Source: Flavobacterium sp. 11 (GTDB lineage Bacteria; Bacteroidota; Bacteroidia; Flavobacteriales; Flavobacteriaceae). From it: a stretch of DNA of 64,000 nucleotides. The stretch is taken from the NCBI RefSeq assembly GCF_002754315.1, contig NZ_PEFE01000001.1:744001-808000 (forward strand), read 5' to 3'. Under the pieces are notes generated by a model. It saw nothing but the letters and a program-made list of their open reading frames with translations. It did not search any database and was not told where the DNA came from. Shown here piece after piece: positions 9,384-26,496 of the stretch; within the stretch, counting starts at the first letter, position 1; every line of letters begins with the position of its first letter. The position numbers and the translations under genes were made by a program.

Positions 9384-11351
9384 ATGACCTTTATAAAAAA
9401 AACAATACTAGCAGTTTCGATTTTAATGACCGTTTGCGGACAAGCACAACAACGTTTAAAAAAATCGAATTCACCCAAAAAATCAGGTTACAGCATAACT
9501 CCTGTAAACATTCAAAATGTCAAGGTTACAGATGCTTTTTGGTTGCCTATCATCAAGAAAGTACAGGAAAAAACCATCGAATACGCTATCCAAAAATGTC
9601 AAGAAGAAGGACGCATGGACAACTTTTTAATTGCAGGTGGTAAAATGGAAGGAACCGTAAAAGGTCAAATGCCTTTTGACGATACCGATGTCTATAAAAT
9701 TATCGAAGGCGCTTCAAATACTTTAATTAGTGAACCCAATCCAAAACTCGAAATACTATTAGATTCACTAATTAGCATTGTGAAAATTGGTCAGGAAAAA
9801 GACGGTTATTTAACAACCTGGAGAACCATAAATCCTGCGAAACCGCCAGCTCCTTGGGTTCCCGTGATTGAAGGAAAGCGTTGGGAATCACTTCAAATCA
9901 GTCATGAATTGTACAATTCCGGTCATCTGATCGAAGCGGCTGTAGTACATTACGAAGCTACCGGAAAGAAAAACTTCTTAGACATTGCCATCAAAAATGC
10001 GGATATGCTAGTGAGCACTTTTGGCGACAGAGCAGACCAAGTTCATGGTGTTCCAGGACATCAAATTGTAGAAACAGGCTTGGTAAAATTATACCAAGTT
10101 ACCAATAACAAAGCCTATTTGAACTTGGCAAAATACTTTTTGGACAACCGCGGAAATCCAAAAAACCACACCTTATACGGTGCGTACTCCCAAGATGATA
10201 TTCCTGTTGTTCAACAAAAAGAAGCGGTGGGTCATGCTGTAAGAGCCGTGTATATGTATGCCGGAATGACGGATATTGCTGCTTTAGAAAATGATGCTGC
10301 TTACGGGAATGCGGTGAATCATTTGTGGAATAATATGGTCAATAAAAAAACATACATCACCGGAGGTATTGGTGCGAAACACGATGGAGAAGCCTTTGGC
10401 GAAAATTACGAATTGCCTAATCTTACCGCTTACAACGAAACGTGTGCTGCAATTGGCAATGTGTATTGGAACCATAGATTGCATAATATTTCTGGAAATT
10501 CAGATTATTTTGATGTGATTGAACGCTCTTTATACAACGGATTGATTTCTGGATTGTCATTGGACGGAAAAAAATTCTTTTATCCAAATGCTTTAGAATC
10601 GGATGGTGTTTATAAATTCAATCGTGGCGAATGTACGCGTCAATCTTGGTTTGACTGTTCTTGTTGTCCAACGAATTTGATTCGGTTTATTCCTTCGATT
10701 CCGGGATTGATTTATTCTAAAAGTAAAGATGTACTTTATGTGAATTTATATGCTTCGAATACAGCGAAAATAACATTGGACAAAACTGATTTAGAAATTG
10801 CACAGCAAACCAATTATCCTTGGGACGGAAAAGTTGCTCTTACTGTTTCTCCAAAAAAAGAAAGTGAATTTACCATAAAATTACGCATTCCAAGTTGGGC
10901 GAGAAATCAGGTTTTACCGGGAGATTTATACCGTTATTCGACTACCTCAACTGCAAAAACAACCGTTACTATAAACGGAAAAGCATTTGCATACCAAGAA
11001 GACAAAGGATACATCACCATTACCCGAAAATGGAAAAAAGGTGAAAAAATTGTCCTTGATTTCCCAATGGAAGTAAAACAAGTGGTAACCAATGCGAAGG
11101 TGGAAGGCAACAAAGGGAAAGTCGCTTTGGAATACGGACCTATTGTGTATGCAATTGAAGAAGCTGATAATGCTACTAATTTCGACGCGATAACCATTGG
11201 TGCAAACGATACTTTCAAAGTTAAAAAAGAAGAAAACCTTTTAGAAGGTGTAAATACCATCCAAACCCAAAAATTAAAAGCCATTCCGTATTATTCCTGG
11301 TCAAACAGAGGCGTTGGAAAAATGAAAGTTTGGATTGATTACAAAGAGTAA
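9384..11351 (+). CDS. Secreted GH127 beta-L-arabinofuranosidase
   Basis: A 655-residue protein with a signal peptide ending near CGQAQQ. The (alpha/alpha)6 barrel is followed from about residue 450 by beta-sandwich domains. The residues that in the characterised Bifidobacterium enzyme HypBA1 bind zinc and act as nucleophile are all in place: Glu352 and Cys354 in NETCA, and Cys427-Cys428 in DCSCCPT. Glu336, 16 residues before Glu352, matches the acid/base position. GH127 removes beta-linked L-arabinofuranose, which occurs in hydroxyproline-rich plant glycoproteins and in some pectic side chains. Its presence beside alpha-arabinan enzymes widens the range of arabinosides this locus can use. It starts 21 bp after the GH43 stop. 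Confidence 0.95.
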   Translation: MTFIKKTILAVSILMTVCGQAQQRLKKSNSPKKSGYSITPVNIQNVKVTDAFWLPIIKKVQEKTIEYAIQKCQEEGRMDNFLIAGGKMEGTVKGQMPFDDTDVYKIIEGASNTLISEPNPKLEILLDSLISIVKIGQEKDGYLTTWRTINPAKPPAPWVPVIEGKRWESLQISHELYNSGHLIEAAVVHYEATGKKNFLDIAIKNADMLVSTFGDRADQVHGVPGHQIVETGLVKLYQVTNNKAYLNLAKYFLDNRGNPKNHTLYGAYSQDDIPVVQQKEAVGHAVRAVYMYAGMTDIAALENDAAYGNAVNHLWNNMVNKKTYITGGIGAKHDGEAFGENYELPNLTAYNETCAAIGNVYWNHRLHNISGNSDYFDVIERSLYNGLISGLSLDGKKFFYPNALESDGVYKFNRGECTRQSWFDCSCCPTNLIRFIPSIPGLIYSKSKDVLYVNLYASNTAKITLDKTDLEIAQQTNYPWDGKVALTVSPKKESEFTIKLRIPSWARNQVLPGDLYRYSTTSTAKTTVTINGKAFAYQEDKGYITITRKWKKGEKIVLDFPMEVKQVVTNAKVEGNKGKVALEYGPIVYAIEEADNATNFDAITIGANDTFKVKKEENLLEGVNTIQTQKLKAIPYYSWSNRGVGKMKVWIDYKE

Positions 11352-11378
11352 AAAAACAAAGAGATAATAGACGAATCA

Positions 11379-11418
11379 TTAAAGTTTAAATGCGTACACC
11401 CACAACTTTAAACTTTAA
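11379..11418 (+). repeat. Perfect 12-bp inverted repeat between GH127 and GH51 genes
   Basis: TTAAAGTTTAAA (11379-11390) pairs with TTTAAACTTTAA (11407-11418) across a 16-nt loop. There is no T-run, so this is a weak terminator at best; similar hairpins stand before araA and before galM. Confidence 0.6.
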
Positions 11419-11436
11419 ACCTTAAACCAATAAAAA

Positions 11437-13422
11437 ATGAAACCAAATTTAATTACCAAAATCACCCTTTGTGGGCTTTTACTAAATGGCTTTTATGCCA
11501 ATGCACAAAAAACGAATCTGGAAGTTAATACCACTACTACGGTTACTAAAATTCAGCCAACAATGTACGGTGTGTTTTTTGAAGACATCAACTTTGCTGC
11601 CGATGGTGGTTTGTATGCCGAAATGATTAAAAATCGTTCTTTTGAATTTGAAGCGCCGCTTATGGGTTGGGAACAACCGAATAGCGATAAACATTCTTTC
11701 AATACAACATCCGGAATTGCTACAACTGTCAAAGCATTGGAAAACAAAACCAATCCAAGTTTTTGCAGAGTATTAATCAATGATGCCAAAGGATTTTCGA
11801 TCATTAATGAAGGATTCCGTGGCATGGGAATTAAGAAAGATGCCAAATACAATCTTTCGCTAAAAGCGGCAAATCACAACGGCGCTATCAAAAAAATCAT
11901 CATTCAATTTATTGATAAAAACAAAAAAGTATTAGGCGAAACCAGTATTGTCCCAACATCAAACGATTGGAAAAGCTATACTGCACAATTTACTGCTACT
12001 CAAACCGAGGCAAAAGCACAATTGAAAATCACCTTTGAAGGAAATGGAACCATCGATTTAGACATGATTTCTTTGTTTCCAGAAGACACTTGGATGAACA
12101 GAAAAAACGGAATGCGTAAAGACATTGTGCAACTTTTGCATGATATGAAACCGGGATTTTTGAGATTCCCTGGAGGTTGTATTGTTGAAGGAAGAACTTT
12201 GGCACAACGCTACCAATGGAAAAAAACAGTGGGTGATGTGGAAAAAAGAGAAACTTTAATCAACCGCTGGAACACTGAATTCACTCACAAACCGGCACCA
12301 GATTATTTCCAGACTTTTGGATTGGGATTTTTTGAATATTTCCAACTTTCCGAAGATTTAGGCGCGCAACCTTTGCCTATTTTGAGCTGTGGAATGGCGT
12401 GTCAGTTCAATACCGGAGAATTAGTTCCAATGGAAGAATTAGATCCTTACGTTCAAGATGCTTTGGATTTAATTGAATTTGCAAACGGCGGCACAGAAAC
12501 CCCTTGGGGAAGAATTCGTTCTGAAATGGGACATCCAAAACCGTTTAACCTAAAATACATTGGTGTTGGAAATGAGCAATGGGGACCAGATTACATCGAA
12601 AGATACAAAGTATTTGAAAAAGCGATTAAAGCAAAATATCCAAAAATGATTATTGTTTCCGGAAGCGGACCATTTCCAGAAGGAGATTATTTTGAATACG
12701 GCATGCAAGAACTTAAAAAATTGAATGCTGAAATCGTTGATGAGCATTATTATAAAAGCCCACAATGGTTTAGAGAAAATGCCACTCGTTACGACAGTTA
12801 TGATCGAAAAGGCCCTAAAATTTTCGCAGGAGAATATGCTGCTCAAAGTGTGGCTATTGCAAGTCCTGATAATAGAAACAATTGGGAATGTGCCTTCTCT
12901 GAAGCTGCTTTTATGACCGGTTTAGAAAGAAATGCTGAGGTCGTTAATTTAACTTCTTACGCACCATTGATGGCGCATGAAGAAGCGTGGCAATGGACAC
13001 CAGATTTACTTTGGTTCAACAATCTGGAAGCGTATGGGTCTGCTAACTATTATGTGCAAAAATTATTTGCCACCAATAGAGGAACCGATTTAATAGCAAT
13101 TACCAAAGACGGAAAACCGGTAACTGGGCAAAACAATCTGTTTGCATCGGCAGTGAAAGATAGCAACTCTAAAGAAGTAATTGTAAAATTAGTAAACACA
13201 TCGGCGACTGCACAAGAAGTAAATGTAGACTTAAAAGGAACCAAATTACAAGCTAAAGGAACTATAATTACCCTTACAAGTCCAAACTTACAAGACGAGA
13301 ATTCATTTGCAAATCCTAAGAAAATAAGCCCTACAGAAAAGGGATTTAATTTAAAAGGGGACAATGCACAAACGAGCCTTCCACCCTATTCTGTTACTGT
13401 TTTGAAGTTAAAAATGAAATAA
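11437..13422 (+). CDS. Secreted GH51 alpha-L-arabinofuranosidase (long form with CBM-like domain)
   Basis: A 661-residue protein with a signal peptide ending near GFYANAQ. Residues about 55-215 look like a carbohydrate-binding jelly-roll (CBM4/9-like, with AQLKITFEGNGTIDLDMISLFPEDTW at its end). The catalytic barrel follows, with acid/base Glu380 in VGNEQWG and nucleophile Glu466 in FAGEYAAQS, and then a C-terminal beta-sandwich that ends TSLPPYSVTVLKLK. Members of this longer GH51 group act on arabinan and arabinoxylan. It is the last polysaccharide-degrading gene before the sugar catabolism genes. The family is certain; preference for polymer over oligomer is inferred from the added binding domain. 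Confidence 0.95.
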   Translation: MKPNLITKITLCGLLLNGFYANAQKTNLEVNTTTTVTKIQPTMYGVFFEDINFAADGGLYAEMIKNRSFEFEAPLMGWEQPNSDKHSFNTTSGIATTVKALENKTNPSFCRVLINDAKGFSIINEGFRGMGIKKDAKYNLSLKAANHNGAIKKIIIQFIDKNKKVLGETSIVPTSNDWKSYTAQFTATQTEAKAQLKITFEGNGTIDLDMISLFPEDTWMNRKNGMRKDIVQLLHDMKPGFLRFPGGCIVEGRTLAQRYQWKKTVGDVEKRETLINRWNTEFTHKPAPDYFQTFGLGFFEYFQLSEDLGAQPLPILSCGMACQFNTGELVPMEELDPYVQDALDLIEFANGGTETPWGRIRSEMGHPKPFNLKYIGVGNEQWGPDYIERYKVFEKAIKAKYPKMIIVSGSGPFPEGDYFEYGMQELKKLNAEIVDEHYYKSPQWFRENATRYDSYDRKGPKIFAGEYAAQSVAIASPDNRNNWECAFSEAAFMTGLERNAEVVNLTSYAPLMAHEEAWQWTPDLLWFNNLEAYGSANYYVQKLFATNRGTDLIAITKDGKPVTGQNNLFASAVKDSNSKEVIVKLVNTSATAQEVNVDLKGTKLQAKGTIITLTSPNLQDENSFANPKKISPTEKGFNLKGDNAQTSLPPYSVTVLKLKMK

Positions 13423-13522: not shown

Positions 13523-13565
13523 TAAGTGTTTTTTATACACTTATAAAATAAATATATTATATTTG
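13523..13565 (+). promoter_or_regulatory. araB promoter with overlapping 21-bp palindromic operator
   Basis: TAAGTGT-N7-ACACTTA occupies 13523-13543. The flavobacterial -7 element TATATTTG lies at 13558-13565, 23 bp before the araB ATG, so the palindrome covers the -33 region, as expected for repression. The same 7+7+7 palindrome precedes the GH97 gene. An AraR-type regulator is plausible, but none is encoded in the window. Confidence 0.7.
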
Positions 13566-13587
13566 TAATTCTTTAAAAGATTTTGGG

Positions 13588-15279
13588 ATGAAAAATTATG
13601 TTATAGGATTAGATTACGGAACAGATTCTGTTCGAGCGATGTTAATAGACACTGAAAATGGGCAAGAGTTAGCATCAAATGTTTGTCAATACAAGCGATG
13701 GGCAACCAAAGAATATTGCAATGCATCCACAAATCAGTTTCGCCAGCATCCTTTAGATCATATCGAAGGATTAGAAACGACCATAAAATATGTTGTTCAA
13801 AACAGCAACATAGATCCTTCACTAATACGAAGCATTTGCATTGACACCACCGGTTCATCACCAGTACCAGTTACTAAAGATGGAATTCCTTTGGCTTTGA
13901 CTGAAGGTTTTGAACACAATCCGAATGCGATGATGGTGTTGTGGAAAGATCATACGTCTATCAACGAAGCAAACGAAATCAATGAACTTGCCGAAAATTG
14001 GGGTGGAGAAAATTTCACCAAATATGTAGGTGGGATTTATTCATCAGAATGGTTTTGGGCAAAAATTTTACACATCGCAAAAGTAGATACAGCTGTAAAA
14101 GATGCCGCTTATACTTGGATGGAACATTGTGATTTGATGACGTATTTATTGATTGACAATAAAGATTTAAAAACATTCAAAAGAAGTCGTTGTGCAGCCG
14201 GTCATAAAGCCATGTGGCACGAAGACTGGAATGGATTACCACCTGAAGAATTCTTAGGTCAATTGCATCCATATCTTGCCGCACTTCGCGGAAGATTATA
14301 CGATGAAACCTATACATCAGACCTTGTAGCCGGAAATTTAAGTCAAGAATGGGCAACACGATTAGGACTTACAACCGATACTGTAATTGCTGTGGGAACA
14401 TTCGACGCACATTCTGGAGCGGTAGGAGCAAAAATTGAAGAGAACACTTTGGTTCGCGTGATGGGAACCTCAACCTGTGATATTATTATTGATTCAAAAG
14501 AGTCAATCGGAACAAAAACCGTTCGTGGTATCTGCGGACAAGTTGATGGCTCGGTAATTCCAGGATTCATAGGTCTGGAAGCGGGACAATCTGCTTTTGG
14601 AGATTTATTGGCTTGGTACAAAGAATTACTACTTTGGCCAACAGAACATTTATTGGCTACTTCTACCCTTTTGACTGAAGAACAAAAAAAGCAGTTAAAA
14701 GCGGAAATGAGTGATAATTTAATCGTTCAATTGACCGCCGAAGCAGAAAAAATTCCTTTATCCGAAAGTGTACCAATCGCTTTAGACTGGATTAACGGAA
14801 GAAGAACTCCAGACGCTAACCAGGAAATTAAAAGCGCTATTTCTAATTTGAATTTAGGAACCAAAGCACCACATTTATTCAAATCTTTAGTAAACGCCAT
14901 CTGTTTTGGTTCTAAAAAAATAGTAGATCGCTTTGAGGAAGAAGGGGTGAAAATAAACAGCGTCATCGGGATAGGTGGTGTAGCGAGAAAATCGCCTTAC
15001 ATCATGCAAACCTTGGCAAATGTGTTGAATAAACCAATCAAGATTGCGGCTTCAGACCAAACACCAGCGTTGGGCGCAGCTATTTATGCAGCAGTTGCAG
15101 CAGGAATTTATCCGAATGTAATAGAAGCCAGCCAAAAAATGGGAAGTGATTTTGACGGTGAATATTTTCCACAATTAGACAAAGTTGCTGCTTATAATAA
15201 ATTGCTTTTGGCGTATGAACAACTAAGTTCTTTTGCCGATCCATCTATTAAAAAACTACACCATGAGCAGTATGTATAA
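13588..15279 (+). CDS. araB: Ribulokinase
   Basis: A 563-residue FGGY-family sugar kinase of the ribulokinase type. The N-terminal phosphate-binding motif GLDYGTDSVRAMLID and the second-domain motifs VMGTSTCDIII and GIGGVARKSPYIMQ are visible, and the length matches bacterial AraB. It phosphorylates L-ribulose to L-ribulose 5-phosphate in the cytoplasm with ATP. It has its own promoter with a palindromic operator. Its 3' end overlaps the araD start by 17 bp in another frame, which indicates translational coupling. Confidence 0.97.
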   Translation: MKNYVIGLDYGTDSVRAMLIDTENGQELASNVCQYKRWATKEYCNASTNQFRQHPLDHIEGLETTIKYVVQNSNIDPSLIRSICIDTTGSSPVPVTKDGIPLALTEGFEHNPNAMMVLWKDHTSINEANEINELAENWGGENFTKYVGGIYSSEWFWAKILHIAKVDTAVKDAAYTWMEHCDLMTYLLIDNKDLKTFKRSRCAAGHKAMWHEDWNGLPPEEFLGQLHPYLAALRGRLYDETYTSDLVAGNLSQEWATRLGLTTDTVIAVGTFDAHSGAVGAKIEENTLVRVMGTSTCDIIIDSKESIGTKTVRGICGQVDGSVIPGFIGLEAGQSAFGDLLAWYKELLLWPTEHLLATSTLLTEEQKKQLKAEMSDNLIVQLTAEAEKIPLSESVPIALDWINGRRTPDANQEIKSAISNLNLGTKAPHLFKSLVNAICFGSKKIVDRFEEEGVKINSVIGIGGVARKSPYIMQTLANVLNKPIKIAASDQTPALGAAIYAAVAAGIYPNVIEASQKMGSDFDGEYFPQLDKVAAYNKLLLAYEQLSSFADPSIKKLHHEQYV

Positions 15280-15964
15280 TGCTTTAAAACAAGAATGCTA
15301 CGACGCAAACATGCAATTGAATGCATTGAATTTAGTAGTCTATACTTTTGGAAACGTGAGTGCCGTAGATAGAAAAAATGGCGTTTTTGCGATAAAACCC
15401 AGCGGTGTTCCTTACGAAGATTTGAAACCCGAAGACATTGTTATTGTAGATTTTGACAATAACATTATCGAAGGCAGCATGCGTCCGTCATCGGATACAA
15501 AAACGCACGCTTATTTATATAAAAACTGGCCAAACATCGGTGGTGTAGCACACACTCACGCCACGTATTCTGTAGCTTGGGCACAGTCGCAAAGAGACAT
15601 TCCAATTTTTGGAACGACTCACGCCGATCATTTAACCACTGATATTCCTTGTGCTGCGCCAATGGCCGACGCACTTATCGAAGGCAATTATGAACACAAT
15701 ACCGGAATTCAGATTTTGGATTGTTTCAAAGAAAAAAACCTTTCGTACGAAGAAGTGGAAATGATTCTCATTGGAAATCACGGTCCTTTTGCTTGGGGAA
15801 AGAACGCAGCAAAAGCAGTTTACAATAGTAAAGTTTTAGAGGTAATTGCGGAAATGGCACACTTGACTTTGCAAATAAACCCAAATGCTCCAAGATTAAA
15901 AGATTCCTTAATAAAGAAACATTACGAACGCAAACACGGAAAAGATTCGTATTACGGACAATAA
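15263..15964 (+). CDS. araD: L-ribulose-5-phosphate 4-epimerase
   Basis: A 233-residue class II aldolase/epimerase. The first ATG at 15263 (MSSMYNALK) is preferred over an upstream TTG because it gives the family's normal length and start; an ATG at 15272 is an alternative. The metal-binding histidines are visible in HTHATYS and HADHLT, with the later HGPFAWG segment, and the protein ends KHGKDSYYGQ, as AraD does in Escherichia coli. It converts L-ribulose 5-phosphate to D-xylulose 5-phosphate, which enters the pentose phosphate pathway. It overlaps araB by 17 bp. Confidence 0.97.
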   Translation: MSSMYNALKQECYDANMQLNALNLVVYTFGNVSAVDRKNGVFAIKPSGVPYEDLKPEDIVIVDFDNNIIEGSMRPSSDTKTHAYLYKNWPNIGGVAHTHATYSVAWAQSQRDIPIFGTTHADHLTTDIPCAAPMADALIEGNYEHNTGIQILDCFKEKNLSYEEVEMILIGNHGPFAWGKNAAKAVYNSKVLEVIAEMAHLTLQINPNAPRLKDSLIKKHYERKHGKDSYYGQ

Positions 15965-15987
15965 TAGATTTTTGAATGATGATTAAC

Positions 15988-16060
15988 GATTTTTGATTTC
16001 AGATTTCATAGCACTAGATTTCTCGTTTTACACGAGTCTAAACTTCTGAAATCAAAAATC
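15988..16060 (+). repeat. Large branched hairpin between araD and araA
   Basis: A perfect 16-bp inverted repeat pairs 15988-16003 with 16045-16060. Inside it a second stem, CTCGT (16022-16026) with ACGAG (16032-16036), would form a branch. No T-run follows, so it looks more like an mRNA-processing or stability element than a terminator. Confidence 0.65.
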
Positions 16061-16140
16061 TTAAATCATTTTATAACTCAATGTTATTTTCCAGAATAGG
16101 TAAAACAATGTTATTCAATACTATATAAAATAATAAAATA

Positions 16141-17649
16141 ATGATAGATATATCTCAAAAAGAAGTTTGGTTTGTAGTAGGCAGCCAAGAATTATATGGC
16201 GAAGAAACGCTAAGAAAAGTAGCAGAGCATTCCCAACATATTGCAAAAGGGTTACACGCTTCGTCTCATATACCAGTGAAAATTGTATATAAAGATGTGG
16301 TGAAATCTCCAGCACAAATTACAAATGTATGCTTAGAGGCCAATTCGAACAAAAACTGTATTGGTATTATTGCTTGGATGCATACCTTCTCGCCTGCTAA
16401 AATGTGGATTGGCGGTTTAAATATTCTTAAAAAACCATTGTGCCATTTGCATTCACAATTCAACGCTGAAATTCCATGGGCTTCTATGGATATGGATTTT
16501 ATGAATTTAAACCAATCGGCTCATGGAGACAGAGAGTTTGGTTTTATCATGTCCAGAATGCGTAAAAAACGTAAAGTGGTTGTTGGACATTGGGAAGACG
16601 AACGCGTTCAAAAGAAATTAGGCATTTGGTCCAGAGTCGTTTTAGGTTGGGATGAGTTCCAAAACTTAAAAGTGGCAAGATTTGGAGACAATATGCGCGA
16701 AGTTGCAGTAACTGAAGGAGATAAAGTCGAAGCCCAAATCCGTTTTGGTTTTTCGGTAAATGGTTTCGACTCTTCAGATATTACCAAACACATTGACAAC
16801 GTTTCTGATGCTGACACCAATGCATTAGTTGCAGTATATGAAGCGTCTTATACTTTGGCTCCAGCCCTTCAAAAAGGAGGAGAAAAAAGAGATTCATTGC
16901 TAGAAGCTGCCCGAATAGAAATAGGATTAAGAGCATTTCTTGTAGAAGGAGGTTTTGGTGCTTTCACTGATACTTTCGAAAATCTGGGTTCATTAAAACA
17001 ACTTCCGGGAATTGCTGTGCAACGTCTTATGGCAGATGGATACGGTTTTGGTGGAGAAGGCGACTGGAAAACTGCCGCTTTACTCCGTGCGATGAAAGTA
17101 ATGAATGTAGGTCTTGAAGGAGGAACTTCTTTCATGGAAGATTATACGTATCATTTCACGCCTCAAAAATCGTATGTTTTAGGGTCTCACATGTTGGAAA
17201 TTTGCTCTTCTATTGCTGATGCAAAACCTTCTTGTGAAGTTCACCCATTAGGAATTGGAGGAAAAGAAGATCCGGTTCGTTTGGTATTTAATGTTGCTGC
17301 TGGAAATGCTATCAACGCTTCCCTGATTGATATGGGGAACCGTTTCCGATTGATTGTAAACGAAGTAGAAGCGGTAGCGCCAATGGCTGATTTGCCTAAA
17401 CTTCCTGTTGCTCGCGTCTTGTGGGATTGTAAACCAGACCTTGATATTGCTGCAACTACATGGATTTTAGCAGGTGGAGCACATCATACGGTATACAGTC
17501 AAGTTTTGACAACTGAATATATGGAAGATTTTGCCGATATTGCAGGTATAGAATTGCTTGTTATCGATGAGAAAACAACCGTTAGGGACTTTAAGGATAA
17601 AATTAATGCTAACGAAGCCTATTATCATTTGTTTCAGCACGGTCTATAA
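16141..17649 (+). CDS. araA: L-arabinose isomerase
   Basis: A 502-residue AraA protein of normal length. Recognisable family segments are [15 protein letters not shown] at the start, [12 protein letters not shown], the catalytic and metal-binding region [12 protein letters not shown], and [10 protein letters not shown]. It interconverts L-arabinose and L-ribulose in the cytoplasm with a divalent metal. It lies 176 bp downstream of araD, separated by a large hairpin, and probably belongs to the same operon, since no clear TAnnTTTG element was found before it. Confidence 0.98.
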
Positions 17650-17666
17650 TTTAAGTCTAATGTCAT

Positions 17667-17735
17667 AAAGTCTTAATGTCCAATGCAGAGGATTAAAGTT
17701 TTAGTTAATTTTTAAACTTTAGACTTTAAGACTTT
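17667..17735 (+). repeat. Inverted repeat between araA and galM
   Basis: AAAGTCTTAA (17667-17676) pairs with TTAAGACTTT (17726-17735), with further T/A-rich self-complementarity between. It resembles the hairpins before araA and before the second GH51 gene. Confidence 0.55.
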
Positions 17736-17758
17736 TAAAAACTAAAAAACGAATCATT

Positions 17759-18940
17759 ATGAATGTATTAAAACGTTGCATTTACGGAATTTCCATAGTA
17801 AGTTTGGCAAGTATGAATATTCAATGCAAAAGCGATAAAAAAGTGGAAGAAACTGTTACAGAAGCAAAAGCTACTGATGTGGTGACTATCGAAAAATCAG
17901 CTTATGGAACGACTCCAAAAGGCGAAAAAATTGACAGTTACAAACTGAAAAACCAAAAAGGAATGGAAGTGGATATTATCACTTATGGTGGAATTATCTC
18001 TTCTTTGAAAGTGCCTAACAAAGCCGGGAAATCAGAAGAAGTAGTGCTTGGTTTTAATTCATTGGAACAATACATGAAACCAAATCCGTATTTTGGAGCC
18101 CTTATCGGAAGATACGGAAACCGAATTGCAAAGGGAAAATTTACCTTGGACGGAAAAGAATATGCTTTGGCCATCAACAACGATCCTAATGCTTTGCACG
18201 GAGGACCTGAAGGTTTTCACAGAGTGGTTTGGACTGCCGAAGAAGCAAAATCCGGGGACAATGCTTCGCTAAAATTGAAGTATGTGAGTAAAGACATGGA
18301 AGAAGGATATCCTGGAAATCTAACTGTTTTTGTAACCTACACCTTGAACAATGACAACTCATTGGACGTGGTTTATGAAGCGACTACCGATAAGAAAACG
18401 GTGGTAAACTTAACACAACACTCGTATTTCAACTTGTCTTCTGATTTTTCTAAACCAATTTTAGATCATGAAATCACTATCGATGCAGATAAATTAGTTC
18501 CGGTTGCAGCAACACTTATTCCAACAGGAAAATTGACCGATGTAACCAATACGCCGTTTGATTTCAGAAAAGCGAAAAAAGTGGGTGCACAAATCGAAGG
18601 GAAAGACGAACAATTGAAAAACGGATTGGGTTACGACCATTGCTGGGTACTGAACAATCAAGATAAAGGAGAGCGTTTTGCAGCATCGGCTTATGATGCG
18701 GGAAGCGGAAGATTATTGGAAGTGTACACCGACCAACCGGGAATACAGTTCTATTCCGGTAACTTCTTAGACGGTACTTTACCCATGAGAAATGGCGGAA
18801 CGTATGCTCGCAGAACTGGTTTTTGTCTAGAAACACAACACTATCCAGATTCTCCAAATCAAAAAGATTTTCCAACTACGGTCTTGAATCCAGGTGAGAA
18901 TTATAAAACAAAAACAAGCTTTAAATTCTCTGTTAAATAA
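17759..18940 (+). CDS. galM: Aldose 1-epimerase (mutarotase), lipoprotein
   Basis: A 393-residue GalM-like protein. The N-terminus is a lipoprotein signal (NIQC, Cys23) followed by a lysine/glutamate-rich spacer, so it is anchored in the envelope rather than cytoplasmic. Family motifs visible are GRYGNRIA, NNDPNALHGGPEGFH, NLTQHSYFNL, and LETQHYPDSPNQKDFP near the C-terminus. Mutarotases interconvert sugar anomers; here it would act on arabinose released in the periplasm before uptake. It closes the arabinose locus and is followed by a strong terminator. Confidence 0.94.
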   Translation: MNVLKRCIYGISIVSLASMNIQCKSDKKVEETVTEAKATDVVTIEKSAYGTTPKGEKIDSYKLKNQKGMEVDIITYGGIISSLKVPNKAGKSEEVVLGFNSLEQYMKPNPYFGALIGRYGNRIAKGKFTLDGKEYALAINNDPNALHGGPEGFHRVVWTAEEAKSGDNASLKLKYVSKDMEEGYPGNLTVFVTYTLNNDNSLDVVYEATTDKKTVVNLTQHSYFNLSSDFSKPILDHEITIDADKLVPVAATLIPTGKLTDVTNTPFDFRKAKKVGAQIEGKDEQLKNGLGYDHCWVLNNQDKGERFAASAYDAGSGRLLEVYTDQPGIQFYSGNFLDGTLPMRNGGTYARRTGFCLETQHYPDSPNQKDFPTTVLNPGENYKTKTSFKFSVK

Positions 18941-19024
18941 CAATACACTAACTAATTATAGATTAGTTTCTATTCCCATAAATAAGTTGAATGGTTTGGT
19001 TTAAATATGGAACTAGTTAGTAAC

Positions 19025-19053
19025 CCCGAAAGTAAAACTTTCGGGTTTTTTTT
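19025..19053 (+). terminator. Strong intrinsic terminator of the arabinose locus
   Basis: CCCGAAAGT (19025-19033) pairs with ACTTTCGGG (19037-19045) across an AAA loop, and eight T follow directly. Confidence 0.9.
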
Positions 19054-19213
19054 ATGGTATCAGGTAATTTAATAGTGCTGTTTTAGTGTAGTTTTAGATA
19101 ACTTTCTTGATTGCGAGCGGGATGCTCATTCAATTACAATTTACAGTTATTTACTTTTGAGAGTGTTCGCGAGCGATACGCTATCGGTAGTTAGAGGATT
19201 TGACAAATCATCA

Positions 19214-19279
19214 CAAATACAAAACCAACTTTCCATTAAGCCAATTGCGCAAAACCGCTGTTAGTGGCTGTTATATACA
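19214..19279 (-). repeat. Partial cassette-type repeat (site A)
   Basis: The block CAAATACAAAACCA followed by ATTAAGCCAA and GTTAGTGGCTG aligns with the right part of the longer repeat at 20222-20362. The left half is missing or diverged. It stands directly after the stop of the gene ending at 19284. Confidence 0.6.
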
Positions 19280-19283
19280 GGTT

Positions 19284-20207
19284 TTATGCGTCCTTCATTT
19301 CCCAATGATATTCAACACCTCTAAAATTTCTATTTTTCAAACGTGAACCAAAAATGGAGGAATTATACATATCAACTAATCCTTTTGCTATTTCAGGTAA
19401 ATCCTCTTCAGTAAGATTTTCATCTATTAAATCAATTCTATTTGTAACTGTTGGTATATTTGGCTTGTAAATAGCCTCTTGAAATGGCTTTAAACTATTT
19501 CCTTGGTTATGAAACCATATACTTTGGGAATAATTATTATTTAAATTATCTCGATATTGAATATATATTTCAAAAGAGTTATCTCCAATTACGTAATCAA
19601 TTGGAATTATTATTTTCTTACTTTTTGGGAATGAGTGATAAATTCCACGTTCTGAAATGCCCCAAATTTCATCATCAATTAATTTTTTTAACTTAGCTAA
19701 ACTTTTATAATCATCTTTAACCCAATCTTTAATAAATGTTTCATACGAATAATTTTCATCACTTTCAGTAACAAAAAGCCAAATATCAATATCAAATGCA
19801 GGGTGGTCACTTTCATTCGATATTATTAGACAATTTTTAGCATTTATTACTTTAGAGTTATATTGTAAAAACGGTAAATTCGATAATCTAAGTTGTTCAT
19901 TAAACATTTTCACTGACTCTTCTTGAGCATTTGCTGTTCTTCTGAGTTCTTTTCTTGTATATTTAAGTTCTTTCCTTTGAAGGTTTAATTCAATTTTTTG
20001 TAAAAAAATTGTATAAATAATTCCCGATAAAGCTAATCCTGAAAATAGAGAATTAATCGCTCAAAAAGTATCTCCAAAAGATCCACTTTTTAACCAATCT
20101 GAAAAAGTAAACCAACTTACAATTGCAGAGATAATCCAAATAATAATAACTCCAATAATTAGTTGGCTAAAAGGTATAATTTTACTGTTGTTTTTGTCTT
20201 TTTTCAT
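19284..20207 (-). pseudogene. Two-TM coiled-coil protein of unknown function, interrupted by a TGA codon
   Basis: The intact downstream part (19284-19913, 209 residues) is only the C-terminal two thirds. The same frame runs upstream without another stop to an ATG at 20207, for 307 codons in total. It encodes a transmembrane segment (residues about 14-34), a TGA at codon 49 (20061-20063), a second hydrophobic segment (LFSGLALSGIIYTIFL) and a charged coiled coil (LQRKELKYTRKELRR). In homologues as I remember them the stop position is a glycine in GDTFGAINSLFSG, so one GGA-to-TGA change explains the break. The C-terminal domain is not one I recognise. A sequencing error, or a restart at 19913, are alternatives. 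It sits between two cassette-type repeats. Confidence 0.75.
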
Positions 20208-20221
20208 TTTTTTTTAAACTT

Positions 20222-20362
20222 GCATATAACGTTCCCGCGCTACACACAGGCTGGGATTAAGAAAGCCTAAACTTTCTGTTAAAAACTAATTTTTCAAATA
20301 CAAAACCATTTTCAAATTAAGCCAAATGCCCAGCTTGCTTGTAGCGTGTGTTAGCAGTTGGC
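20222..20362 (-). repeat. Cassette-type imperfect palindrome (site B)
   Basis: Left arm GCGCTACACACAGGCTGGG (20237-20255) pairs imperfectly with the CCCAGCTTGCTTGTAGCGTGT segment at 20329-20349. The middle contains CAAATACAAAACCA and ATTAAGCCAA, shared with site A. The outer ends are TATAACG and GTTAGCA. It fills the whole gap between two minus-strand genes, as recombination sites of gene cassettes do. An integron attC-like role is inference. Confidence 0.65.
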
Positions 20363-20848
20363 TTATTCATTTATGGACTTTAGTAATTCGTTGGCTTTTA
20401 TAAAGACTTTCACCTCTTCTCTTATATCGTCATAACTTTTTAAATTTGTTAGAGGAGTTATATTTTGATTTTGAAAATAAAATCTCTTTTTATTTAATAA
20501 GTTTTTTTTTCCACGCAATATAAACAGCTCAACGTATATGGGTTTTGTATTATAGTAATAATATATCCAAAATTCTTTTGAGTCAGTTTGGTTATAATTA
20601 ATTCTCAAAATTTCGTTCGAGTATTTTAAAATTCTAGTATTAATTTTACTTGATGTTGTAGGTTCACCATTAATTTTTGCGTGTCCAGGAATTTCATAAA
20701 TACTTTGAATTTCTTCAGGAGTAAAACTAGAAATACTATCAACATATTTTACATGAGATTTAATAAAATTGATTTCAATTAGATTATCAATTTTTTTTTG
20801 ACCAAATAAAAATATTGGTAATAGTATCAGGATAATTTTTAGTTTCAT
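20363..20848 (-). CDS. Small secreted protein of unknown function in a cassette-like setting
   Basis: I do not recognise the family. The ATG at 20848 is chosen because it gives a clean signal peptide (MKLKIILILLPIFLFGQKK), typical for exported flavobacterial proteins, and a 161-residue product; a longer frame to 20929 runs into a palindrome. The mature part is charged, with Lys/Glu/Asp-rich helices and several aromatic residues (FWIYYYYN), and has no visible catalytic motif. The stop abuts the cassette-type repeat at 20222-20362. Lone small genes between such repeats are often strain-specific. Confidence 0.65.
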   Translation of the reverse strand: MKLKIILILLPIFLFGQKKIDNLIEINFIKSHVKYVDSISSFTPEEIQSIYEIPGHAKINGEPTTSSKINTRILKYSNEILRINYNQTDSKEFWIYYYYNTKPIYVELFILRGKKNLLNKKRFYFQNQNITPLTNLKSYDDIREEVKVFIKANELLKSINE

Positions 20849-20901
20849 TTCAATATTATTTTTTCTTTTAGCATTTAGCTTGCTGCTAACTAATATATAC
20901 A

Positions 20902-20959
20902 CGAAACAAATCTTCGCATATACACCCAAAAATGGGTAGATTCACGAAGGTTTGTTTCG
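20902..20959. repeat. Long 27-bp imperfect hairpin
   Basis: Arms 20902-20928 and 20933-20959 pair over 27 positions with a few mismatches around an AAAA loop; CGAAACAAA starts one arm and TTTGTTTCG ends the other. There is no T-run. It could be a miniature mobile element, a cassette-site relic or a terminator-like structure. Confidence 0.65.
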
Positions 20960-21092
20960 CTTTATCTCTTTTCAAATATATTAAAATTTTCTTACAAATT
21001 ATAAAAAAGCCTTTTCATGTGTTGGAGTCATTTGACGCTAACACTACTTGAAATCTAGATTAGAAATAAGGTATTGGACATGCAGAATTCCC

Positions 21093-21190
21093 TAGCCCTG
21101 ATTGCAACGGAAATCCTTTTCTTAATCCTGTCTGGGTTTACCCAGACAGGATTAAGAAAAGATTGCAGTGTAAAGCGGGAAATAGCTCCT
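21093..21190 (-). repeat. Dispersed palindromic repeat, copy 1
   Basis: A perfect 21-bp inverted repeat (21116-21136 with 21141-21161, TTTA loop) is framed by TAGCCCTGATTGCAACGG on the left and GCGGGAAATAGCTCC on the right. The frame recurs in opposite orientation at 33917-34026. Here it follows the GH97 stop and may act as its terminator. Confidence 0.75.
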
Positions 21191-21197
21191 GAAAAAA

Positions 21198-23117
21198 CTA
21201 AATCTTCACGACAAACCCTCCATGAGGTTTCATAGTTACTTTTAATTTGGTACTTTTTGATACTGTTTTTTGCTGAAATCCGTTCTCGTCTTCGGCGATA
21301 CTAAAACCTTTGGAATTAGTTACAAAAGACAAATCAATTTCTATTTCTTTGGCAGTGGTTTCCCCGTTAATCCCAACGATATGCCATATATTGTCTTTCT
21401 TTCTGGCCATGATAATGTACTTTCCCGGATACCCATCAATAAATTTAGAATCATCCCAATTCGTTGGAATGTCTTTTAAATAATCGACTACATAAGCAGG
21501 CATTTTAGCCATTCCGTCAGGCGTTTCGGCCATGTGTTGAATTCCGGATAAGAATAAAACGGGCAAGGCTAATTCAAATGCTGGAGTTGTTTTTCGGGTA
21601 ATATTTGGAATAGAATCCAAAACCATTGGTGTAAAATCCATGGGGTCAAAAACATTTCGGGCAAAAGGGAGCATGGCACAATGTGTTGGGGCTAAATCAG
21701 CAATATCTTGAAAAAAAGTAATGTATTCATATCCTTTTACCGCTTCAGTCGTAAGCAAATTTGGATACGTGCGTTGCCAACCTCTGGGTAAAGTAGCTCC
21801 ATGTAAATTAATCACTAATTTATGCGCCGCAGCATCGGTCAGCATATCATGGTAATACGCAATCATCGATTGTCCGTCGCCACCAAAAAAATCAACTTTG
21901 ATTCCCGCAATTCCCATTTCATTCAATCTGGTAAACTCCCGAACTCTGTCGGCATGGGTAATCAATTTACTTTTTGGATGGTATTCCGTACTGTTCCAGG
22001 ATCCTGATGAATTGTACCAAACGAGTAATTTCACGTTTTTACCTTTGGCGTAAGCCGACAATTCTTTCATTTTTTTATCGCCAATTCGGGTATCCCAATC
22101 GGCATCTATCAAGCAATACGGCCAATTCATAGCAGCGGCATAATCAATAAATTTATGGGTAGTTTCATAATTAACCGATTCATCTTTCAGCAAAACCCAG
22201 CTCCAAGACGCAATTCCGCTTTTTATAAACGAAGTGTCTGCAACCGTTGACGGATCGGCTAAATCTGTTCCCATCGTACTTTCGGTAATGGTTTTGAGTG
22301 ACCCGATAGTAATGATGCGCCAAGGCGTGTACCAAGGCAAAACAGATTCCGGATTCAATGCTCCGTTAGGGAAAATTTCTTCTTTTTGCGGAAAAGTTAC
22401 CTGCATTGCTTTGGCTGTATCATTATATACCAATCGGCTCCCGCAATAATTGGCTTGCAATCCTGTTTCGGAAATCAAAACCCAAGTATCATTGGCATGA
22501 AACAAAGCCGGATACACCCAACCTTCTCCTATTGCAGGTTTTGTATTTACGGGAACGCCCATCGCATAATGCTCTTCATAGGAAGGATTGGTTTCTTTCC
22601 ATCCGGTTTTGGCTTTGGACATGGGTTGCAACCACGCTTTTGTGGTGGTGTCAAAATTATAAGTAGTTTTCTCTTCAACTATTTTTTTAATAGCTGTCGA
22701 AGTTTCTGGAAAATGGTATCGCAACGCAATTCCATCGTGGGATAGTTGAAAAATAACATTCATTCTTTCCCCTTTATTGTTTTGCAAGCTAACCGTGTAT
22801 TGATTTGCGGCATAAGCGATTTTTTTTCGTTTCCCTTGCAGCATCGAATAGTTGGATTGAATTGGTTTCGATTTAGAAACGGCCACTATCTTTAAATCCG
22901 TATAAAAATTAGCGTCTTCTCTGACAATCCCCAAATCAGAAGTATTAACAACCAATTTATCTTTGAAGAAAACCTTGTAAGAAGGCGTTTTCTTTAGGTT
23001 TAGACTAAATTCAATTTTTATTGTTTTATCCGAGTTGACAAAAAAATAACGGGTTGGTTTCCCCACAAATGAAGACAATGACAGCGCCAAAAAAGCTAGC
23101 AAAACTATTTTTTTCAT
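21198..23117 (-). CDS. GH97 family glycosidase, retaining alpha-galactosidase-like
   Basis: A 639-residue protein with a signal peptide (ALSLSSFVG), so periplasmic. The N-terminal beta-sandwich spans about residues 25-285, the TIM barrel about 290-540, and a C-terminal beta domain follows. The segment GIKVDFFGGDGQ places an Asp where retaining GH97 enzymes have their nucleophile; HGATLPRGWQRTYPN follows as in that subgroup. The glutamate bases of inverting SusB-type alpha-glucosidases are not seen. It is convergent to the arabinose locus but has the same 21-bp palindrome before its start as araB, so a role in arabinan or pectin use, for example removal of galactosyl or arabinopyranosyl caps, is inferred. 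Confidence 0.92.
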   Translation of the reverse strand: MKKIVLLAFLALSLSSFVGKPTRYFFVNSDKTIKIEFSLNLKKTPSYKVFFKDKLVVNTSDLGIVREDANFYTDLKIVAVSKSKPIQSNYSMLQGKRKKIAYAANQYTVSLQNNKGERMNVIFQLSHDGIALRYHFPETSTAIKKIVEEKTTYNFDTTTKAWLQPMSKAKTGWKETNPSYEEHYAMGVPVNTKPAIGEGWVYPALFHANDTWVLISETGLQANYCGSRLVYNDTAKAMQVTFPQKEEIFPNGALNPESVLPWYTPWRIITIGSLKTITESTMGTDLADPSTVADTSFIKSGIASWSWVLLKDESVNYETTHKFIDYAAAMNWPYCLIDADWDTRIGDKKMKELSAYAKGKNVKLLVWYNSSGSWNSTEYHPKSKLITHADRVREFTRLNEMGIAGIKVDFFGGDGQSMIAYYHDMLTDAAAHKLVINLHGATLPRGWQRTYPNLLTTEAVKGYEYITFFQDIADLAPTHCAMLPFARNVFDPMDFTPMVLDSIPNITRKTTPAFELALPVLFLSGIQHMAETPDGMAKMPAYVVDYLKDIPTNWDDSKFIDGYPGKYIIMARKKDNIWHIVGINGETTAKEIEIDLSFVTNSKGFSIAEDENGFQQKTVSKSTKLKVTMKPHGGFVVKI

Positions 23118-23120
23118 AAT

Positions 23121-23157
23121 TAAGTGTTTTATTTACACTTACAAGAATACAAAAATA
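23121..23157 (-). promoter_or_regulatory. GH97 promoter with 21-bp palindromic operator
   Basis: TAAGTGT-N7-ACACTTA lies at 23121-23141, just upstream of the ATG (23117). On the minus strand TATTTTTG (23157-23150) is a good -7 element, which puts the palindrome over the start of the transcript. The palindrome has the same arms and spacer length as the one at 13523-13543. Confidence 0.7.
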
Positions 23158-23317
23158 AAATTGTATAAATAACGATATCGTTAAAATTTTCAAACTCTAT
23201 TTAGAATATCACAAAAAAAACGTTTTGGGGTATAAAACTGCTACAAGTGAACCGATAATCAAGTGATTAACGCCATATTAATGGATATTTCAGGAGAAAA
23301 AAACCATCTAAAACCAA

Positions 23318-23345
23318 AAAAACCGCTTCTTTCGAAGCGGTTTTT
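23318..23345 (-). terminator. Bidirectional terminator, probably the original tRNA-Leu terminator
   Basis: CCGCTTC (23323-23329) pairs with GAAGCGG (23334-23340), flanked by A and T runs. Read on the minus strand it directly follows the duplicated tRNA 3' end at 23346, so before the island arrived it would have terminated the tRNA transcript. Confidence 0.8.
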
Positions 23346-23360
23346 GTACCCGGAGCCGGA
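23346..23360. other. Distal attachment site core
   Basis: Exact 15-bp copy of the tRNA-Leu 3' end, followed by ATTGAAACC, which still resembles the tRNA T-arm (GTCGAACC). Confidence 0.85.
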
Positions 23361-23510
23361 ATTGAAACCCCTCAATAAGGCAATTTTAAGAAACCCATAA
23401 AACACTACTAAAAACTACATAAACACTAACAAAATCAATTGATACAAAGGTTTAAGAACAAAGTGACTCGATTGAATTAAATCTAATAAAATGCAATAGA
23501 ATAGAAAAAA

Positions 23511-23531
23511 TGTCGGGCAAATGTCGGGCAA
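23511..23531. other. Left-end pair of putative integrase arm sites
   Basis: TGTCGGGCAA at 23511-23520 and 23522-23531, spaced 11 bp. The same pair arrangement occurs at the right end of the element (31788-31805). Confidence 0.6.
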
Positions 23532-23596
23532 CTTTGTAAATCGTATTATTTTAAAGGTTATCTTTGAATTGTTCAAAACGTTTAAAAGTTCAAAAA

Positions 23597-24976
23597 ATGG
23601 CAACAGTAAATTTTAGATTAAGAAGTAATGCAAACAAACACGTATCTATAAAAGTTCGTATTACATTAGGTCGAGATAAAGCAGACCTTGAATTAAATAC
23701 AGGGTTTTCAATCAATCCAAATGACTGGAACGACAATAAACAAAGACCAATACTAAGCAGTACTAAAAACCGCCCAACAGAAACTAAGGAAGCCGGAGAA
23801 AAATTTGACGAACATCAAAAATTCAAACAAGACCTTTTTGAGGATTTAGATAAATTAGAATCTTATCTTTTCAAAGAACAAAACAAAGATTTAGGGCAAA
23901 GTGTTTTGATTGACTCGTTTTGGTTAAAATCAAAAATAATCGAATGTTTTAATCGTGTTGAAAAAACAGACACCGGAATACTCACAAACTACATACAGGA
24001 CATTATAGACAATGCAAGTACTCGCAAAGTAAAAATAAAAGGTGGTTATAAAATAGGTATTTCAAAAAGCCGAGAGAATAGTTTTGAATCTACAAAAAAC
24101 ATTCTCAAAGAATATCAAACCAAAAAAATAAAGAAACAAATTCACTTTATTGATATTGACGAAACCTTTATTGACAAATTTACTAATTGGTTATTAAAAA
24201 CAAAAAAGTATGCAACAAACACCGCATCAAAACACATAGCCAATATAAAAACAGTTAGTATCGAAGCCGAAAGAAAAGGCAAAATTCAAGTTAATCCATA
24301 CGCAAAACATATCGTAATATTTACCGAAAGTGACGAGGACAGATTTATACAAACATTATCCTTTGACGAATTAGAAACTATTAGAACCACAGAGTTAACA
24401 AGTGAGGCATACAACAACGCCCGAAAATGGATACTATTAGGCTGTGAGTTCGGACAAAGAGGACAGGATTTAATGAATATCACAAAAGAAAACGTTCGAT
24501 ATAAAGGCGGTTTTCTATATTTAGACATCATACAACAGAAAACAAAAAAACCGGTTACAATACCCATAATTGCGCCCCACGTTGTGGATATAATAGAGAA
24601 TAGTTTCCCTTATAAAATCAGTACTCAAAAACTAAACTTGTATATTAAAAAGGTTTGTGAGATTGCTAAAATTGAAGTAATGACAGAGGGCAAAATATAC
24701 GACTCAAAAACTAAACGTAAAGAACTAAAGTTTTATGAGAAACATAAATTGATGACAACACACTCTTTTCGCAGAAGTTTTTGCTCTAACTATTATAAAA
24801 AGATAGCAACCCCAATATTAATGGCTATCAGCGGACATCAAAAAGAATCAGTTTTTTTAAAATACATAAACGAACCCGAAGACAAAGACGATAACGCAGA
24901 CTTATTTAGGAAGTTATACGAAGACCTCAACAAAAAACCCAAAATGGTATTATTACCAAACGGAACCAACGATTAA
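23597..24976 (+). CDS. Tyrosine recombinase (phage-type integrase)
   Basis: A 459-residue integrase. The ATG at 23597 (MATVNFRLRS) is chosen over a TTG at 23564 because the Bacteroidota arm-binding domain normally starts so. Residues 1-85 form the arm-binding domain, about 155-260 the SAM-like core-binding domain, and about 265-445 the catalytic domain. Catalytic residues are visible: Arg in GQRGQD, His and Arg in THSFRRSF, His in SGHQKES and the nucleophile Tyr in VFLKYIN. It catalyses integration and excision at the tRNA-Leu site. It is the first gene inside the distal end and reads inward. Confidence 0.95.
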   Translation: MATVNFRLRSNANKHVSIKVRITLGRDKADLELNTGFSINPNDWNDNKQRPILSSTKNRPTETKEAGEKFDEHQKFKQDLFEDLDKLESYLFKEQNKDLGQSVLIDSFWLKSKIIECFNRVEKTDTGILTNYIQDIIDNASTRKVKIKGGYKIGISKSRENSFESTKNILKEYQTKKIKKQIHFIDIDETFIDKFTNWLLKTKKYATNTASKHIANIKTVSIEAERKGKIQVNPYAKHIVIFTESDEDRFIQTLSFDELETIRTTELTSEAYNNARKWILLGCEFGQRGQDLMNITKENVRYKGGFLYLDIIQQKTKKPVTIPIIAPHVVDIIENSFPYKISTQKLNLYIKKVCEIAKIEVMTEGKIYDSKTKRKELKFYEKHKLMTTHSFRRSFCSNYYKKIATPILMAISGHQKESVFLKYINEPEDKDDNADLFRKLYEDLNKKPKMVLLPNGTND

Positions 24977-25386
24977 ATATTAAACACCCTGACTAAAACG
25001 AAAGATTAACAATTATTCGACGGTGGCGGATACGAACAATAAGCACCTAGACAAAATACCAGCAGGAAGAAAAGTATTGTATACGGCATAGAGGAATAAA
25101 ACGGCTTAACTTACTTGATTAATAATGAATTAAACAATAGTAGTTAGGCGAAATACAACCAACGGTAAAAGATAGTTTTCTATATTTACAGAAATAAGGG
25201 CAGTATTAGGTTATCCGGATAAAACAGAAGAGAATTTAAAATGAATTTGAAAAACAAAACCAAAAAAAAGACCCCCCACCCTTTATAAAAAGACTTTCCA
25301 TTTAAAAAGTAACACCCGTAAAACAGGATATAACATTGGGTCTCTAGTTGTAAGTACAAATAATTAACCCTAATAAACAATAGAAA
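24977..25386. other. Gap after the integrase gene
   Basis: I see no convincing gene in these 410 bp. A 64-codon minus-strand frame is AT-rich and hydrophobic but lacks any recognisable start context. The gap may hold promoters for the next genes. Confidence 0.5.
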
Positions 25387-25620
25387 ATGAGCAATTTAAA
25401 TCAAACACAAAAAGAGTTTTTAGAAACAGTTACAGACGGTAAGCAATGGCAAACACTTAAAAAAGCATTTGAAAAAGTGAATAGCGAAATTGCCGGTTTA
25501 ACTGACGACCAAATTTATTGCCTTGACAATACTGTTTATACAGATAGTGCAAGAAAGAAATTAATAAAAATATTTAGAATGGAAAATTTAATGATTAATA
25601 TTGATCCGTCAATCAATTAA
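25387..25620 (+). CDS. Small hypothetical protein of the island
   Basis: A 77-residue soluble protein with no recognised family. It is mostly helical by composition, charged, with a core TLKKAFEKVNSEIAGLTDDQIYCLDNTVY. It has its own clear ATG with an A-rich upstream region and is followed by a good hairpin, so it is likely a separately transcribed gene. Function unknown. Confidence 0.65.
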   Translation: MSNLNQTQKEFLETVTDGKQWQTLKKAFEKVNSEIAGLTDDQIYCLDNTVYTDSARKKLIKIFRMENLMINIDPSIN

Positions 25621-25630
25621 CATTTTACTA

Positions 25631-25684: not shown

Positions 25685-25714
25685 AATAAGTTCAAAATAC
25701 GAATTAACAGGCAA

Positions 25715-26410: not shown

Positions 26411-26414
26411 CACA

Positions 26415-26447: not shown

Positions 26448-26496
26448 GCAATTTGATAGAATTTTACAAAGTCAAACAATAAAAACACTTTGTAAA

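Follow-up and report, generated by a model that had tools for sequence, protein, structure and literature searches.

Palindromic sites before araB and a GH97 gene of Flavobacterium sp. 11 as probable operators of an AraR-type repressor

The arabinose regulator AraR has been described in 17 species of Bacteroides and 15 species of Prevotella (PMC4666351). In Bacteroides thetaiotaomicron, it acts in vivo as a repressor that is relieved by arabinose, with an effect of about 30-fold on araM (PMC5061871). The operator with which the B. thetaiotaomicron protein (BtAraR) was crystallised contains GTGT-TACTTTT-ACAC, and the BT0365 oligonucleotide, for which binding was proven by electrophoretic mobility shift assay, contains AAAGTGT-AAAAAAG-ACACTTA; GH97 was named among the predicted AraR targets of Bacteroides in 2015 (PMC4666351). 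One GH97 enzyme, BT3661, is described as a beta-L-arabinopyranosidase/alpha-galactosidase, with D408 as nucleophile and E463 as acid/base (PMC12102758); PMC10492685 gives its second activity as one on an arabinofuranoside, and the title of the paper cited there says arabinopyranosidase. In Maribacter, also a flavobacterium, the genes for araBDA and mutarotase reach their highest abundance on arabinose (PMC11036162). The present analysis concerns a stretch of 64,000 nucleotides (the window; C1:744001-808000, where C1 is contig NZ_PEFE01000001.1) from the genome of Flavobacterium sp. 11 (3,763,919 bases, 3.76 Mb), in which one 21-bp palindrome, TAAGTGT-N7-ACACTTA, precedes both araB and a GH97 gene. 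The two copies very probably serve as operators for a repressor of the AraR type (NrtR family), the gene for which lies 1.4 kb to the left of the window.

The two palindromes and the regulator

An earlier reading of the window from its letters (the sequence-only reading) had reported the two palindromes, and direct reading of the sequence finds both at the coordinates it gave, with identical 7-bp arms and spacers of 7 bp in each. The araB copy (13523-13543, TAAGTGT-TTTTTAT-ACACTTA) is situated 44 bp upstream of the araB ATG (13588), and the GH97 copy (23121-23141, minus strand, TAAGTGT-AAATAAA-ACACTTA) 3 bp upstream of the ATG; the letters of the two spacers are not the same. The possibility raised in that reading, that the motif is common at random sites, is not borne out, as the exact motif is present at only these two places in the whole genome, whereas the dinucleotide composition of the window together with three 20-kb stretches of the same genome would lead one to expect 0.018 copies.

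When the motif is relaxed to AARTGT-N7-ACAYTT, there are eight perfect matches in the genome, six of which are within one 39-kb stretch (C1:728332-767140; binomial 3e-11, for a stretch picked after the fact) and precede an SSS transporter, transketolase, susC (two sites), araB and GH97. The remaining two are within mechanical open reading frames (ORFs) of 114 and 717 codons. A seventh site in the cluster, with one mismatch, is 52 bp upstream of araR (C1:742623), and a weaker one (C1:742994) is in the same gap between araR and susC. The genome search that the sequence-only reading proposed, to the extent that it was feasible, places the perfect relaxed matches at arabinose genes and a one-mismatch site before the regulator gene. 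Weaker matches are not in excess: with up to three mismatches there are 4 in the window (5.15 expected) and 211 in the genome (370 for a reversed-pattern control), and with up to one mismatch to AARTGT-N7-ACAYTT there are 104 in the genome (103 for the reversed control). Therefore, a match is informative only if it is near-perfect or otherwise supported, and a large regulon marked by weak copies was rejected, the counts being equal to or below those of the controls. Nine loci outside the cluster were examined: eight fall within mechanical ORFs that have 80 codons or more, and the ninth (L005, two mismatches) is outside such ORFs, among several similar weak matches.

The consensus of the -7 promoter element is TAnnTTTG. 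At araB, the -7 box (TATATTTG) begins 14 bp past the palindrome, which places the palindrome over the -33 region; a TAnnTTTG box follows 13-15 bp after the site at all 49 exact araB sites of a genus sample (199 genomes, including the present one). At GH97, a -7-like box (TATTCTTG) abuts the site, which therefore lies over the presumed transcription start, and TAnnNTTG is kept at this position in 11 of 12 orthologues. The -7 boxes thus bear out the placement given in the sequence-only reading. Both positions would suit repression by exclusion or blockage of the polymerase, and the GH97 operator would nearly fill the presumed leader.

The unseen regulator that had been predicted has a good candidate in araR, which adjoins the susC gene of an arabinan locus and is 15 kb from araB. 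The protein (229 amino acids) has the domains PF00293, PF21906 and PF19368, all above cut-off, i.e., a NUDIX domain followed by an NrtR/AraR winged helix. Its closest solved relative is BtAraR (5BS6, E 3.7e-66; 47% identity over 215 aligned residues) and the runner-up is 3GZ5 (E 5e-21); its closest named relatives among the best matches listed are from F. restrictum and F. cellulosilyticum (95% identity). Residues were surveyed in this protein and in 80 AraR loci, the top 80 among 594 confirmed AraR-like stretches (Flavobacterium for the most part, with Lutibacter, Galbibacter, Zunongwangia, Leeuwenhoekiella, Maribacter and others), with BtAraR numbering and with roles in L-arabinose and DNA contact taken from PMC4666351. 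The L-arabinose contacts R34, R86 and H131 and the pocket residues Y5, F36 and F129 are identical in the present protein and in 80/80 loci, F49 is kept in 79/80, and V92 is replaced by T in the present protein and throughout; the present protein matches seven of the eight arabinose-site residues. The DNA contacts K179, R180 (which intercalates) and N181 are also identical in 80/80.

Conservation of the sites and the GH97 enzyme

The sequence-only reading had left open whether the site of AraR matches the palindrome. The BT0365 oligonucleotide shares 13 of the 14 fixed bases and has the same 7-bp spacer, and both window sites fit the AraR operator seen in the published oligonucleotides, i.e., a 21-bp palindrome with a GTGT-N7-ACAC core and A+T-rich flanks (PMC4666351). 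In the 80 AraR loci (stretches of up to 10 kb per side, of which 69 contain a match to GH51a and 36 one to araB), AARTGT-Nx-ACAYTT occurs 207 times with a spacer of 7 and 0-2 times with each other spacer from 0 to 15. The N7 pattern is present in 76 of the loci, many of which are close relatives, so that the 207 sites are not independent. Within 500 bp, N7 sites precede araR (69), araB (43), the SSS transporter (37), GH51 (32), tkt (12), tal (4) and GH127 (2), where one site may count for two genes. For 39 of the 207, no query gene starts within 500 bp; 24 of these lie some 400-620 bp from araR on its 5' side, by position in the araR-susC gap, and the SusC query lacked the N-terminus.

Across the genus sample, there are 60 exact copies of the motif in 49 of the 199 genomes (reversed control, 2). 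Forty-nine copies lie 44-50 bp before araB and ten lie 3-7 bp before GH97; the sixtieth is inside a 506-codon ORF (L218) of a genome without an AraR match (G033). AraR (E up to 1e-80) is present in 57 genomes, comprising 47 of the 49 with the motif versus 10 of the 150 without it (Fisher 3.8e-33, kinship ignored). The second motif genome without an AraR match, G181, is 68% complete and its site precedes araB.

Close orthologues of the GH97 protein (75-100% identity, search cut at E 1e-150) are found in 12 of the 199 genomes, including the present one, all of which have AraR. Just before the ATG of all 12 there is AAGTGT-N7-ACACTT, the 21-mer ending 3-7 bp away; ten have the exact 21-mer and the other two deviate at an outermost base. 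Among the 12 upstream regions, mean pairwise identity falls from 0.98 (arms) to 0.82 (spacer), 0.74 (-7-like box) and 0.32-0.45 (further upstream), in an ungapped, site-anchored alignment in which insertions and deletions lower the upstream identity. A second palindrome in the GH97 promoter region (AACGATATCGTT, perfect, 12 bp, 23171-23182) was rejected as part of the system, as it is present in none of the 11 other orthologues.

As for the enzyme, the nearest solved GH97 structure is 5XFM (E 4.4e-138), followed by 8WG0 and 8WG1 (named candidate alpha-glucosidase, about 1e-46) and by the alpha-galactosidases 3A24 and 5E1Q (about 1e-44; 3.1e-44 for 3A24). We take 5XFM to be BT3661, which fits the numbering, in that chain residues 403 and 458 are each 5 below D408 and E463. 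In the 5XFM alignment, Asp409 and Glu464 of the window protein align with these two residues. The NCBIfam equivalog model for retaining alpha-galactosidases scores below cut-off (215 versus 800 bits). Hence, of the description "alpha-galactosidase-like" in the sequence-only reading, the GH97 assignment stands and the activity is refined: the window enzyme is a candidate beta-L-arabinopyranosidase/alpha-galactosidase. Its nearness to 5XFM, if this is BT3661, would explain the arabinose control, and an enzyme that releases L-arabinose would be a natural member of an arabinose regulon.

Two other GH97 genes were observed with comparable sites. In three congeneric genomes, a divergent GH97 paralogue (41-42% identity; L154, L155, L240) is preceded by an AraR-like site, at about 50 bp from the ATG in the two measured, possibly a second recruitment. 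In a distant family of the phylum, an exact TAAGTGT-N7-ACACTTA precedes the matched start of a GH97 gene (L239, 51% identity) by about 220 bp; this start corresponds to query residue 42, so the true start is perhaps 100 bp from the site.

Proposed mechanism, rival explanations and neighbouring genes

In the mechanism proposed here, an AraR dimer on each site would block RNA polymerase when L-arabinose is absent, at araB via the -33 region and at GH97 via the start point and nearly the whole leader. Cytoplasmic L-arabinose would bind the NUDIX domain and the dimer would leave the DNA; araBDA-araM, the arabinan locus, transketolase-transaldolase, an SSS-type sugar transporter and the exported GH97 would then be expressed together. 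The GH97 would probably free L-arabinose from terminal beta-L-arabinopyranosyl ends of arabinogalactan-type glycans or, alternatively, galactose from alpha-galactosyl ends of such glycans, and by this release of sugar the induction would feed forward.

Several observations weigh against this mechanism, or against parts of it. K179, R180, N181, K184, K204 and R205 were called absolutely conserved among AraR orthologues of Bacteroidetes (PMC4666351). In the 80 loci, K184 is replaced by S, N or T without exception, and K204 by R in 71 (by R or T in 75); R205 is K in 79; and a further contact, R183, is I in 76 (I, T or V in all 80). By these alignments, the absolute conservation does not hold for the present branch, if its members are counted as AraR. 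Ten of the 57 AraR genomes are without an exact copy of the motif. In B. thetaiotaomicron, inactivation of araR left the steady-state mRNA of two arabinan genes unchanged on glucose and on arabinose, and changed only their induction kinetics (PMC5061871). Therefore, strong control of GH97 is not to be assumed, and confidence that the sites are AraR operators is slightly lowered. GH97 has 0 mentions in the Maribacter arabinogalactan paper (PMC11036162). Outside the close orthologues, the site is limited in its spread. In a family sample of 397 genomes, the relaxed core [AG]TGT-N7-ACA[CT] is present before 8 of 10 GH97 relatives of 54-72% identity (about 560 bp scanned) and absent even in this form from the other two; at 36-39% identity it is present before 1 of 10 and absent from 9. 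In a phylum sample of 395 genomes, 29 loci were scanned (27 outside the family and 2 congeneric; the present locus was omitted, as were three more matches that had no locus), and the 27 out-of-family loci hold a strict site in 1 and the relaxed core in 4. For all 29, these numbers are 2 (L239 and the congeneric L240) for the strict site, 3 (adding L233) for the core GTGT-N7-ACAC and 5 (adding L235 and L241) for the relaxed core. An ancient, phylum-wide link between AraR and GH97 was rejected, since most out-of-family loci are without a site; as judged from these samples, the link is a feature of this clade and not of GH97 at large.

A reader of the sites other than AraR is quite improbable. 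The genome does encode two further NrtR_WHD proteins (L177, C1:362853, the gene for which is divergent from a glycosidase-like ORF, and L178, C1:2924128), and paralogues of this kind are known, BtAraR and BtXylR being 33% identical (PMC4666351). However, the 3.2-kb loci of the two proteins hold no [AG]TGT-N7-ACA[CT] site, and the proteins are without several residues of the arabinose pocket (L177 has T in place of R34, and L178 has H in place of both F36 and F49), whereas in relatives the motif is found around araR and before arabinose genes, and tracks AraR across genomes.

The GH97 palindrome could in principle work in the messenger RNA as a hairpin by the start codon, giving translational control, as in RNA it forms a stem of 7 bp and a loop of 7 nt (-4.8 kcal/mol), located 3 nt upstream of the AUG. 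This stem is weak, its arms are invariant and not compensatory in the 12 orthologues except at the outermost base, and a hairpin cannot explain the araB copy, which is upstream of the -7 box and outside the presumed transcript; such a role instead of that of a DNA operator is hardly credible. Least credible of all is that the two copies are a chance occurrence or a mobile repeat without function: weak matches (up to three mismatches) are indeed no commoner than chance, but the excess of exact copies over expectation, the strong conservation of position before the same genes in other species of the genus, and the different spacer letters of the two copies speak against it. The favoured explanation is repression by AraR.

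The arabinose genes and their surroundings are listed in the table. The arabinan-type locus, with names read from the translations, presumably comprises the remainder of a SusC gene, SusD, GH51, three GH43-like genes, a GH127-like and a GH51-like gene. Left of the window, in what is likely the promoter region of the arabinan locus, there are three AraR-like sites (C1:742994, 743058 and 743157). The start of the mutarotase is signal-peptide-like by eye. Transketolase, for which relatives have the 12 sites counted above, is preceded by an AraR-like site at 238 bp, which suggests that a pentose-phosphate step may be induced together with arabinose use. The galactose/galactan cluster, with a GntR-type regulator and, by eye, an SSS transporter, galE, galT, galK, a GH2-like gene, two GH53-like genes and galM, has only one perfect relaxed site, before the SSS transporter (C1:728331), which suggests a carrier shared by galactose and arabinose. 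Beside GH97 is a likely integrated element with a tyrosine-recombinase-like ORF (by eye), a tRNA-Leu and a direct repeat of the tRNA end.

Table. Features of the arabinose region (window positions unless marked C1, contig, or L030, locus stretch)
Feature	Position	Strand	Basis or remark
araR, 229 aa	C1:741880-742569 (L030:17880-18569)	-	1.4 kb left of window
Arabinan-type locus	44-13422	+	ORFs, translations
-7 box, araB promoter	13558-13565	+	sequence versus TAnnTTTG; kept across genus araB sites
araB, L-ribulokinase	13588-15279	+	NCBIfam NF003154 above cut-off
araD, L-ribulose-5-phosphate 4-epimerase	15254-15964	+	NCBIfam NF006047 above cut-off
araA, L-arabinose isomerase	16141-17649	+	NCBIfam NF002795 above cut-off
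Aldose 1-epimerase (mutarotase, araM-like)	17759-18940	+	PF01263 E 5e-97; NF008277 above cut-off
GH97 glycosidase, retaining type	21198-23117	-	Pfam GH97_N, GH97, GH97_C
-7-like box, GH97 promoter	23142-23149	-	abuts operator; kept among orthologues
AraR-like site before transketolase	L030:14714 (C1:738714)		238 bp before transketolase
Galactose/galactan cluster	L030:2405-13473 (C1:726405-737473)		left of arabinose genes
Likely integrated element	23341-31946		beside GH97
Tyrosine-recombinase-like ORF	23564-24976		by eye
tRNA-Leu	31866-31946
Direct repeat of tRNA end	23341-23366 and 31861-31886		imperfect, 26 nt, 85%

Comparison with known systems

In the literature searched on AraR or NrtR together with Flavobacterium and arabinose, no description of this regulon, or of any AraR in Flavobacteriaceae, was found, and the search on AraR together with GH97 found PMC4666351 alone. 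As GH97 is a previously predicted AraR target in Bacteroides, the present case extends a known regulon. A wider proposal, slightly less likely than not, is that AraR of the Flavobacteriaceae may be a distinct branch that reads a Bacteroides-type operator via altered DNA contacts and that, in some members of the family, has recruited a GH97 of the BT3661 kind (a beta-L-arabinopyranosidase) that makes its inducer, the operator nearly replacing the 5' leader. If true, the result would be a feed-forward loop, specific to the lineage, that acts on arabinopyranose-capped glycans. For arabinose use in Flavobacteriaceae, the analysis yields a consensus operator and a first putative regulon, with targets predictable from sequence, and it hints at a function for a group of GH97 enzymes that is otherwise poorly defined; altered DNA contacts with a kept operator core would also be well suited to testing the Arg180 intercalation model.

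Two other described proteins resemble the components found here. NrtR, the ADP-ribose-responsive NUDIX regulator (3GZ5/3GZ6; we take 3GZ5, the entry of which is named MutT/nudix family protein, to be NrtR), has the same order of domains as the present AraR. It is a far weaker match than BtAraR (E 5e-21, as above; NCBIfam NrtR model 137 versus a cut-off of 400 bits), and, unlike NrtR, the present protein carries the arabinose-pocket residues of BtAraR. BT3661, taken as 5XFM, is the closest solved GH97, and the likeness, which includes the conserved nucleophile Asp and acid/base Glu, is one of sequence.

The closest system as a whole is the BtAraR (BT0354) regulon of B. thetaiotaomicron (PMC4666351, PMC5061871), which has the same NrtR-family repressor with the same L-arabinose pocket residues, the same 21-bp site with a GTGT-N7-ACAC core, and the same targets, araBDA, mutarotase and SusCD/arabinan genes. 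The differences are in arrangement and detail. In B. thetaiotaomicron, araR is within an araMPRDAB operon and araM has tandem sites, whereas here araR is alone and divergent from susC, and the operators at araB and GH97 are single. Predicted sites at araR itself, at tkt-tal and at a separate SSS transporter, and the substitutions at DNA contacts 183, 184, 204 and 205, are also unlike that system; moreover, inspection by eye of the ORFs in the left half of the window, where no profile search was made, showed no hybrid two-component regulator. Thus, the regulator type, the operator and the logic would be those already known, and what appears to be new is their occurrence in a further family of the phylum, lineage-specific targets that include a lineage-limited link to GH97, changed DNA contacts of AraR, and an operator that would nearly fill the presumed GH97 leader.

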